Shown: in pieces, positions 19,827 through 23,171 of the stretch | How positions within the stretch are numbered: the stretch's first letter is position 1 | Layout of the letters: each line of letters opens with the position of its first letter | Source: Fibrobacterota bacterium | GTDB taxonomy: Bacteria; Fibrobacterota; Fibrobacteria; UBA11236 | Length of the DNA stretch: 48,129 nt | NCBI GenBank assembly: GCA_947466585.1 | Contig: CANIEU010000017.1 | Location: 1 to 48,129, forward strand | Direction of reading: 5' to 3' | Notes under the pieces: model-generated | Database searches by the model: none | The model's input: the letters and a program-made list of their open reading frames with translations, nothing else | Told to the model about the DNA's origin: nothing | Position numbers and translations under genes: made by a program

Positions 19827-20573
19827 TTACTTCGTCGACCCCGGAAGAAATTCTCCGTAAGCGAGACGGACGGCGCGCATGTCGCCGTACACCTCCAAAA
19901 ACTCCGCCGTCCATTCCGGCTGCAGGTCGGCAAGGCGGCGCAGCATTTCCGCCACCGCCTTGTAATCGTTGTACGGGCCCGCAGGACGGTCTTCGGAGGC
20001 CGAGGCGGGCCTGCGCCGTGCCCAAGCCGCCAAGCGTCCGCACTGGCGCTGATAGCGCGCCGCGCGCAACAGCCTGTCTACCAGACGACGCCGCAAATCG
20101 GAGACGGGCGCGGCGTCGGAGCCTTCGAGCGCGGCGCGATAGCTCTCGCGTTCGGCGGGCGACAAACGTGCCGCATGCTTGAGAAGCATTTCGAGGTAGC
20201 GGGCGCGGTTCGCACCACCGCGTCGCATCGCAAGGTCGGCGAGCGGCGAATTCCGCGGTGCGGACGGTGAAGCGGGCGGTACCTGCGGGTGGCTTGAAGA
20301 ACCAGTGGATGCGATTCCGGTTGCGGACGTCGCGGAGGTAGAAGAGGTGTCAGCCGGGAAACCCTTCAATTCCGTTTCGGTGCGCGTGAAACAATGCGAA
20401 GCCAGCGCAGAACGATCCGCCGCTTCGGCTTCGCGGCCCTGACGAATGAGCGAAACGAACCATGCACGACGATAGCCGGGAATGCCCGCACCTGCGACGC
20501 GCGCTTCGAGCGCGTCCCAATCCAGCCCGCCTTGCGGCGCGCCGGTCACGGTGTTTTCCCCGGATTGCGTCAT
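19827..20573 (-). CDS. DUF2894-like protein, third gene of the coiled-coil operon
   Basis: 248 residues, no signal or membrane segment. The N-terminal helical part (1-75) is joined by a Ser/Thr/Pro-rich linker (about 76-110) to a helical C-terminal domain. That part, from SPLADLAMRRGG to GPYNDYKAVAEMLRRLADLQPEWTAEFLEVYGDMRAV, resembles the end of DUF2894 proteins as I remember them (GPLNSH..L..L.LM.DLSP.YL..F...VD). The start codon lies 3 nt after the stop of the preceding gene, so translation is probably coupled. DUF2894 genes in proteobacteria sit next to DUF802 and OmpA/MotB genes. The function is unknown and the family call is from memory. Confidence 0.5.
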   Translation of the reverse strand: MTQSGENTVTGAPQGGLDWDALEARVAGAGIPGYRRAWFVSLIRQGREAEAADRSALASHCFTRTETELKGFPADTSSTSATSATGIASTGSSSHPQVPPASPSAPRNSPLADLAMRRGGANRARYLEMLLKHAARLSPAERESYRAALEGSDAAPVSDLRRRLVDRLLRAARYQRQCGRLAAWARRRPASASEDRPAGPYNDYKAVAEMLRRLADLQPEWTAEFLEVYGDMRAVRLAYGEFLPGSTK

Positions 20574-20576
20574 GAT

Positions 20577-22040
20577 TTAGGCTGCTTCCACCGTTTCCGA
20601 AGTATCGCGCGCCCCGGCCTGATCGAGCGCGTCGAGCAGCGATTCCTGCGCCTTGAGTGCGGTCTCCTCGATCAGATCGGCGGAGCGTTCCTCGAACGCG
20701 CGGATGGTCTCATCCATGCGCTTGAGCAGCGCTTCCTGCGCCTGGGCGTAGGACCCTAGCGCCTGCAATCGGTCGAGCAAACCGCCCATGCCCTGGTGGA
20801 ACATTTCCACCGTGGCGCGCCATTCGGCCTGCCCCGCTGCCTGCTGCACGGAGGTCTCTTCGCCGCTGCGGCGCATGCCTTCGATCGCTTCGCCGATGGT
20901 TCCCGCCGCGGCCGACAGATTCCGCAACCATTCTTCCGCCTGTGCGGAGGTCGCCCCGAGACGGGCATCGACCTCTGTGGCGATGGACTGCACGGAGGAG
21001 GATGCTTCTTCGGATGCGGAGCGCACCGCGCCAGCGGCATCGACCGTGACCGTGCGCACCGTGGCGGAAGCCTCGGTGATCGCCTCGCGCACCGTCGTCG
21101 CACCCTGTTCGAGCTGTGCCTGCGACTTCGCAAGCACTTCACGCCACTCGCCCGCAAACGATTCGCGCTGCGCATGCAACGTCTCGTCCCAACGCGACGA
21201 CAGCGACTCGACCAGTCCGCTGACCTTGGCCATCTGCCCGTCGAGCGTGGCCTGAATGCCCTGCGTCGACGCCGTGGCCGACTGTTCCCAGGCGGCGCGC
21301 GCCGATGCGGCCAATTGTTCCCATGCTGCGCGGGCCGAAGCCGTATTCGCTTCCCAGGCGGTACGGGCCGCCGTGTCGCGTGCGCCCAGATCGTTGTGTA
21401 AGGTCGTGCCCTGTTCCCGCAATTGCGTCAGCAGCGCGGAAGAAGCCTTGGACCAATCGGCCTGTGCCGCCTGCAAAGCCGACACGGTGTCGGTGGTGGC
21501 GCGCAGCGAGGCCGCACGCTCTTCGCGATCGCTGCGCAGCGATTCCGAAAGGCCCTTGAGCGATTCCTCGATGCGCCCGGCAAGCGCCGGGGCCATGGGC
21601 GCAAAGCCGCTCTGGATGCCCGATTCGAGCGCCGTGCGCAATTCGTGCGCCTGACGTTCCTGATCGGCGCGGCGGCTCTCGGCCTCGCGCGCGGCCACGC
21701 GAACGCTCTCTTCCATCAGCTCGCGCGGCATGTCCTTCATGCTGTCTTGCAAACGGTCGAGCGAATCCTTCAGACTCTGTTGCGTGCGCTGCGTGCGCTC
21801 CGACGCCTTGCCGAGGCTGAACGCCATCGCCGCGCTCAGCACGCCGAAGATGCCGGTGATGAAGTACGCATCGGCGCGCGCGGGGCGTTTGATCGCCAAA
21901 CGCGTCGTGGCCAGATACACGCACATCGCAGCCATGATCAGGCCGCCCCAGAAAAACACCCGGTACGGGTTGTGCGCCTTCGTCGGTGGGACAGAAGTCT
22001 CTCCGGCAGAGGTGGGGGCGAGGTCTTTGAGGTCATCCAT
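20577..22040 (-). CDS. Membrane-anchored coiled-coil protein (DUF802-like tail), second gene of the operon
   Basis: 487 residues from the ATG at 22040, which has AAGGA upstream; the frame is open to 22115 but that would overlap the previous gene. There are two N-terminal membrane segments (about 28-46 and 58-76), joined by a short loop. About 400 residues of Ala/Glu/Gln-rich coiled coil follow, with internal repeats such as ARAAWEQLAASARAAWEQ. The tail (GLLDRLQALGSYAQAQEALLKRMDETIRAFEERSADLI, split here only for reading) has the rhythm of the DUF802 C-terminus. It lacks the MotA/TolQ-type channel region found in proteobacterial DUF802 proteins. It most likely forms a scaffold or signalling rod in the inner membrane. 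Confidence 0.55.
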   Translation of the reverse strand: MDDLKDLAPTSAGETSVPPTKAHNPYRVFFWGGLIMAAMCVYLATTRLAIKRPARADAYFITGIFGVLSAAMAFSLGKASERTQRTQQSLKDSLDRLQDSMKDMPRELMEESVRVAAREAESRRADQERQAHELRTALESGIQSGFAPMAPALAGRIEESLKGLSESLRSDREERAASLRATTDTVSALQAAQADWSKASSALLTQLREQGTTLHNDLGARDTAARTAWEANTASARAAWEQLAASARAAWEQSATASTQGIQATLDGQMAKVSGLVESLSSRWDETLHAQRESFAGEWREVLAKSQAQLEQGATTVREAITEASATVRTVTVDAAGAVRSASEEASSSVQSIATEVDARLGATSAQAEEWLRNLSAAAGTIGEAIEGMRRSGEETSVQQAAGQAEWRATVEMFHQGMGGLLDRLQALGSYAQAQEALLKRMDETIRAFEERSADLIEETALKAQESLLDALDQAGARDTSETVEAA

Positions 22041-22060
22041 GGTTCGGTATCCTTCGTTGA

Positions 22061-23002
22061 CTATTTCGTTGGGGCGCCGGCATGTTCCGGCAAACCGCGC
22101 AGGTACAATTCCCATTTACGTTCGTAATGATCCAGCATCGCGAGCGCCATGCGCTCGCCCAAGTAAGACAGCACCCGCATGAATCCCGACCATCCGTTGC
22201 GGGTGGGGCTGTGCGCGACCCACGGATGCAAGGTGCCGTGCACCAGGGCCTCGGGATCGGCAAAAGGACGGGTTTCCCAACGCAGCGCCGCCTTGATGAA
22301 GGCCTCTTCGGCGAGTTCGCCGAGGGCGAGACGCATCTTCTTCCACGTTTCGAATTCCGCGTCACGTAAGGCCGCTTCCAGCGTGGGCAGCAGTCGCGTC
22401 GCGTCATCATCGGCGACCACCACGGCCGCATGCCATTCCGAGGCGAAGGAGGACTGAAACACCTGCAGACGGCCCGCGAGCGAGGCCCATTGGCGGGCGC
22501 AATCGGTGGCCATGTCGTGCCCGGTCTGCAGATACAGCATGCGGGCTTCTTTGCGCCCGCCTTTACCGGTCAGCACCACGCCGCCCTCTTCGAAGGGTTG
22601 GATCCATTGGTTGCGATTCAAAAACGGAAGCAAGGCCTTGGGTTCGAGGCGGGCTTCCCAGCGTTCCCGGAATTCTGCGTACTTGAGGCGCGCATCGCGC
22701 CGCAAACCGTCGAGCACGCGTTGCGCTCCTCGGGCCACAGCGGGAACACCGACGGCGCGGACTTCGGGAGTACGGTCGAGTAGGGTGCGGAGAAGCAAGG
22801 TGTGACGCGGCTCCATCCAAGCGGCCAGTTCGGCCAAGGCCGTATCGGGTTCGGATACGGCGAGCGCCGCAGCGTTAGCGGCAGTCGCCGAAGCCGTGTC
22901 GGAAGCGGATGCAGCCTGCTTCGCCTTGGAGGAACCCTTGGCTGGAGCGGAGGAGGCGCCGATGCGAAACGGAGCCAGACTTTTTTCCAGCGGGTGCGGC
23001 AA
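22061..23002 (-). CDS. Uncharacterised helical protein, first gene of the coiled-coil operon
   Basis: 313 residues, TTG start with AAGGA 5 nt upstream. Residues 1-50 are low-complexity Ala/Ser/Lys; the rest is predicted helical and soluble, with no recognisable catalytic motif. Segments include LRTLLDRTPEVRAVGVPAVARGAQRVL, WIQPFEEGG and SYLGERMALAMLDHYERKWELYLRGLP. By position it would correspond to DUF3348 of the proteobacterial locus, but sequence likeness is weak. A perfect -7 element (TATATTTG, 23064-23057) stands about 55 nt upstream. The next gene starts 20 nt after its stop. Confidence 0.5.
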   Translation of the reverse strand: MPHPLEKSLAPFRIGASSAPAKGSSKAKQAASASDTASATAANAAALAVSEPDTALAELAAWMEPRHTLLLRTLLDRTPEVRAVGVPAVARGAQRVLDGLRRDARLKYAEFRERWEARLEPKALLPFLNRNQWIQPFEEGGVVLTGKGGRKEARMLYLQTGHDMATDCARQWASLAGRLQVFQSSFASEWHAAVVVADDDATRLLPTLEAALRDAEFETWKKMRLALGELAEEAFIKAALRWETRPFADPEALVHGTLHPWVAHSPTRNGWSGFMRVLSYLGERMALAMLDHYERKWELYLRGLPEHAGAPTK

Positions 23003-23064: not shown

Positions 23065-23171
23065 TCTACGGAGGGGTGCGGTTTCGGGGTAAAAACGCCC
23101 CCGAAGCGTACCGGGCAGGGAACGGCCGAAATCAGTATTTCGACCGTTTTATCCGGTTTTCCGAGTGAATT

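Follow-up and report, generated by a model that had tools for sequence, protein, structure and literature searches.

Analysis of a 48,129-nt window (contig CANIEU010000017.1 of the Fibrobacterota assembly GCA_947466585.1) indicated that a three-gene operon on its minus strand, whose genes we designate P1, P2, and P3, is a channel-less variant derived from a locus of the Zorya type III kind. Type III Zorya consists of ZorA, ZorB, ZorF (DUF3348), and ZorG (DUF2894), and protects E. coli from phages (PMC8565338). The operon very probably descends from a type III-like locus, and transmembrane (TM) helices TM3–TM4 of ZorA and the whole of zorB are missing from it together; because these two defining parts were tested for and are absent, the locus is not itself a member of Zorya type III. 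A preliminary description, made from the sequence, had treated the operon as a reduced relative of the DUF3348-DUF802-OmpA/MotB-DUF2894 locus. That reading holds in its essentials; the locus used there for comparison had been named and tested before, as Zorya type III.

Architecture of the operon

All features located here lie on the minus strand. P1 (22061..23002) encodes a protein of 313 amino acids (aa) in the ZorF (DUF3348) position; P2 (20577..22040) encodes a channel-less ZorA-like protein of 487 aa, with an N-terminal membrane hairpin and a long coiled-coil tail; and P3 (19827..20573) encodes a DUF2894-like protein of 248 aa in the ZorG position. The intergenic gaps are 20 nt between P1 and P2 and 3 nt between P2 and P3, and the coordinates of the open reading frames agree exactly with the arrangement first described, as does the prediction that the P1 product is soluble and helical. 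The hairpin of P2 (21813..21959) is formed by two hydrophobic TM helices (residues ~28–46 and ~58–76) followed by approximately 400 residues of almost unbroken helix, and neither hydropathy nor the channel profile revealed a TM3–TM4 channel motif after it. The earlier picture of a two-TM protein with about 400 residues of coiled coil is borne out by both hydropathy and the AlphaFold model of P2, which has low confidence (predicted local distance difference test [pLDDT] score of 52).

The channel and zorB are missing together

In the genome to which the window belongs (2.24 Mb, 98% complete), the channel profile had no match at 1e−5 and zorB had none at 1e−10; P2 has only the two TM helices, and no gene lies between P2 and P3. 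The absence of the channel part and the OmpA/MotB partner therefore applies to the whole genome and not to the locus alone; the PF01618 genes of this genome are placed away from the locus, on contigs C6, C10, and C21. We then scored strong matches (E-value below 1e−36) in P1-positive genomes, with counts made by hand from tables. Strong zorB was present in 81 of them (79 in family f3 and 2 in family f4), and the channel profile matched 80 of these 81, the exception (G092) having its P1 cut by the contig end. Both were absent from 24 P1-positive genomes, namely 10 in the window's family (f1), 1 in f2, 2 in f5, 10 in genus g10, and 1 in genus g16. The channel and zorB thus coincided in every scorable genome. 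P2 of all the channel-less forms that we looked at has a membrane anchor and a tail, the anchor consisting of two helices in f1 and one helix in f2, f5, g10, and g16. The shortest P2 proteins (~209–239 aa; L056–L058, L062, and L076, in g10 and g16) consist of one TM helix followed by PKIEIPKIEIPPAKEVVLDLNPVVEAV-type repeats and then a tail tip.

Sister families carry a Zorya type III-like locus

Most f3 genomes and f4 (79 and 2 genomes) have a fourth gene between P2 and P3, giving the order P1-ZorA-ZorB-P3; f3 probably corresponds to the Fibrobacter family. The fourth gene encodes a MotB/OmpA protein with an invariant N-terminal aspartate. Of the f3 ZorB proteins, 12/12 matched the PADLOC model ZorB3 (best E-value, 9e−48; 4e−23 for ZorB1). 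When plasmid records were searched by tblastn with f3 ZorB, the best 27 matches were betaproteobacterial OmpA genes (1e−32 to 1e−24), and the next group (MotB and others) began at approximately 1e−14. All five of the annotated plasmid matches that were opened lay in DUF3348-DUF802-OmpA-DUF2894 operons (Azoarcus, Variovorax, Caballeronia, Aquabacterium, and Paraburkholderia). Furthermore, profile comparison of the f3 ZorB set with the betaproteobacterial ZorB set gave an E-value of 5e−38. P2 of f3, that is, its ZorA, has two extra helices, in which LLGLMGTFFGLM and MKGIFGTSLCGL motifs occur. Both of the main ZorA3 models matched f3 ZorA in 12/12 cases (best, 1e−17), the DUF802 protein matched its membrane part (3.5e−12), and its closest solved structure was ZorA 8qyd (9e−13); a tblastn search of plasmids with f3 ZorA returned no match. 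On these results, f3 and f4 possess a locus like that of Zorya type III.

The tail tip and P3 connect the three-gene operon with the four-gene loci

The tip of the P2 tail (residues ~363–478; 20607..20954) is homologous to that of the channel-bearing ZorA of the sister families. A profile comparison of the f1/f2 alignment with f3 ZorA gave an E-value of 9e−24 over 114 columns (the last ~115 aa), and 0/60 column-shuffled controls came near this value. P2 therefore has a long ZorA-type tail and, by way of f3 ZorA (itself ZorA3 by the models and the DUF802 comparison), the tip seen in type III; compared directly with betaproteobacterial ZorA, the P2 tip matched weakly.

The C-terminus of P3, which reads GPYN...PEW...FLEVY, has a region (19875..19988; GPYN...DPxW...FLELY) in common with DUF2894 (GPLN...SPxYL..F). 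The GPxN...(D/S)P...F motif matched DUF2894 with an E-value of 1e−4 to 2e−4, none of 200 shuffles was as good, and control comparisons gave 0.09 to 0.39. The proposed likeness of the end of P3 to DUF2894 is thus weak but statistically real, and it lies below the level of Pfam and PADLOC detection in scans of all P3 homologues. P1 showed no detectable similarity to DUF3348 in profile comparisons with two alignments, in which shuffles equaled the observed value in 1/200 and 30/100 cases; it is therefore ZorF by position only. The proposed relationship to the DUF3348-DUF802-OmpA/MotB-DUF2894 locus is supported; for P1 it does not go beyond position. The AlphaFold models of P1 (pLDDT 45) and P2 were both too poor for a fold search. 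Scans of the window's P1, P2, and P3 with Pfam, NCBIfam, and PADLOC gave nothing specific except weak ZorA coil matches to P2, and PADLOC and Pfam searches with the complete sets of P1 and P3 homologues also turned up nothing specific and no known effector domain. In PADLOC-DB, the ZorF3 model (PDLC00654) is labeled "DUF2894 domain," and the PADLOC paper assigns DUF3348 to ZorF and DUF2894 to ZorG; the names seem to have been swapped in one of the two.

Distribution, conservation, and history

Of 151 genomes sampled across the phylum, 105 have P1, once per genome. All 105 belong to the same class, in which 105/109 sampled genomes are positive and the four without P1 are 65–88% complete. P3 has the same distribution (117/168 phylum genomes positive, all in the class). 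A separate scan of genome contigs yielded a single close relative. The order P1-P2-P3, on which the preliminary description had made its interpretation depend, is kept by homologues throughout the class. P1 has no internal stop in 24/24 channel-less genomes, and each channel-less locus that was opened has P1, P2, and P3 intact. The ratio of nonsynonymous to synonymous substitution rates (dN/dS) was ~0.15–0.36 in four pairs of channel-less loci, with synonymous sites near saturation in some. Because the order is kept across the class and dN is well below dS in the tested pairs, the operon is not a chance arrangement. In the taxonomic order of the window, 11/11 loci face holA and greA in convergent orientation. 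The single copy, the near-universal presence in the class, this fixed chromosomal place, and purifying selection together make a core membrane-linked role, either housekeeping or standing innate defense, more likely than a mobile defense cassette or a decaying remnant.

The phylogenetic tree of P1 follows the families and contains two changes between channel-bearing and channel-less forms, one separating f1/f2/f5 from f3/f4 and the other at g10, inside f3. Because this tree is midpoint rooted, the inference that the ancestor had a channel rests on the gene order held in common with Proteobacteria; two losses are the simplest reading because Proteobacteria have the same four-gene order. The locus looks like a core locus inherited vertically in the class.

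Flanking sequences and neighboring genes

P1 starts with TTG and has AAGGA, a good ribosome-binding site, a short distance upstream; P2 and P3 start with ATG. The promoter-like TATATTTG that had been reported ahead of the operon was not supported, as a scan for the sigma-70 consensus gave no site. Between gcvH and P1, on the minus strand, there is a terminator-like hairpin (23100–23115) with a T run after it. The flanking genes are gcvH upstream and holA and greA downstream in convergent orientation (gcvH and greA named from sequence, and holA by Pfam).

In the channel-less genus g2 (L036–L041), a gene for a lipoprotein of ~280 aa lies 5′ of P1, and in channel-bearing f3 (L049, L050, L051, and L055) one lies two genes upstream; the two lipoproteins are homologous (best blastp E-value, ~1e−16). 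This gene was dropped as a candidate fifth member of the operon: the window's genus does not have it, nor do f2, f4, f5, and g10, and more distant relatives of it occur in other classes of the phylum, in genomes without P1. In most of g2 (L037–L042) and in f2, a gene for a KaiC-like ATPase (PF06745, as verified for L040), convergent with P3, separates P3 from holA; the window's genus lacks this gene.

Proposed mechanism and alternative explanations

Taken as a whole, the explanation that we favor, and consider probable, is a conserved, channel-less Zorya III derivative that serves P1 and P3 as a helical scaffold anchored in the membrane; for the scaffold mechanism itself, the chances of being right or wrong appear about equal. 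P2 would form a membrane-anchored helical rod that keeps the two partners at the inner membrane or close to it, and its conserved tail tip may be a docking site for P1 and/or P3. At P2, these proteins could act, or stay inactive, without ion flow or cell-wall anchoring. The lack of both wall binding and an ion channel rules out a rotating motor anchored to the wall. Several points weigh against this explanation. The binding of P1 and P3 by P2 is something that we infer, and the AlphaFold models of P1 and P2 are both of low confidence. The link between P1, one of the three genes, and Zorya III is positional only. The middle of P2 is a compositionally biased coil that inflates profile scores, and its N-terminal helices align poorly across genera. 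In the window's genus, the loop between these helices (21870–21902) carries many positive charges (KRPARAD); relatives do not show this, and the membrane topology of P2 is uncertain as a result. Finally, the P1 tree was rooted at its midpoint.

One alternative is that the operon still serves phage defense. P2 might be a membrane sensor and P1 and P3 effectors triggered without ion flow, an account that we regard as plausible but rather less probable than its negation. In E. coli, the type III Zorya of Stenotrophomonas is protective (PMC8565338), and a type III Zorya is reported as a core system, present in all members, in R. solanacearum (PMC13064858), so near-universality alone neither excludes defense nor decides the role. 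However, types I and II require ion flow, wall binding by ZorB, and the ZorA tail (PMC11890865); the neighbors in the window (gcvH, holA, and greA) are housekeeping rather than defense genes, and the scans gave P1 and P3 no known effector domain. Between a core housekeeping role and an anti-phage one, we consider the matter evenly balanced. Decay appears very improbable: a functionless system on its way out would fit the loss of two motor elements and the still shorter P1 and P2 of g10, but it is largely refuted by the stop-free P1 genes, the intact loci, the low dN/dS values, and the breadth of retention of the operon, which takes in two families that share an order, a further family from a different lineage, and a genus belonging to f3.

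The direction of change could also be reversed, with the three-gene form being ancestral and f3 and f4 having gained the channel and zorB or received a four-gene copy by transfer. The midpoint root of the P1 tree and the lack of a detectable relationship between P1 and DUF3348 leave room for this, but we consider it unlikely. Proteobacteria share the four-gene order; zorB lies between the same two genes; P2 of f1/f2 and of f3 have a common tail tip; and the channel-less g10 inside f3 requires a loss in any case. An unrelated coiled-coil operon resembling ZorA by compositional bias would explain why the window's P2 matches the ZorA3 models weakly (3e−6) and in the coil, where apolipoproteins score similarly. 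It is nevertheless refuted for practical purposes by the tail-tip match with its shuffled controls and by the same P1 and P3 flanking true ZorAB in the sister families.

Comparison with known systems

The published mechanisms that we found cover Zorya types I and II, and none was found for ZorF, ZorG, or the ZorA tail of type III. The loss of the channel and wall anchor with retention of the tail tip and both partners amounts to a natural deletion experiment that would show which parts make up a separable working unit. The joint loss suggests that the long tail and the two partners do something without the motor, and the tail tip of ~115 residues is the place to look for partner binding. These lineages further raise the question of whether type III Zorya belongs in part to the core machinery of the cell instead of being a mobile defense cassette. 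More tentatively, a motor-free Zorya III derivative may have become a core cellular system of part of the class. In this view, the ZorA tail and two partners would work autonomously as a machine anchored in the membrane, to which the ion-driven motor of Zorya III would be an add-on shed at least twice.

The 5:2 ion-driven motors MotAB, TolQR, and ExbBD resemble the window's locus through ZorA ancestry only; the locus has no channel, and the PF01618 genes of its genome are separate. Zorya types I and II, with their ZorA5B2 motor and ZorC/ZorD or ZorE, share a long cytoplasmic ZorA tail (published) and weak coil profile matches, whereas the locus has no motor or wall anchor and no ZorC/ZorD or ZorE gene beside it. 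Zorya type III (zorF, DUF802-type zorA, zorB, and zorG) and the locus have in common the gene order, the ZorA-type tail and tip (through the sister families), a DUF2894-like last gene, and a single short operon; in contrast, the window's locus lacks the TM3–TM4 channel, zorB, and any DUF3348 similarity in its first gene, and is nearly universal in its class. The four-gene locus of f3 (Fibrobacter-like) and f4 retains the channel and ZorB, both of which the window's family lacks, but the two share homologous P1, P3, and tail tip, the gene order, and, by the P1 tree, vertical inheritance.
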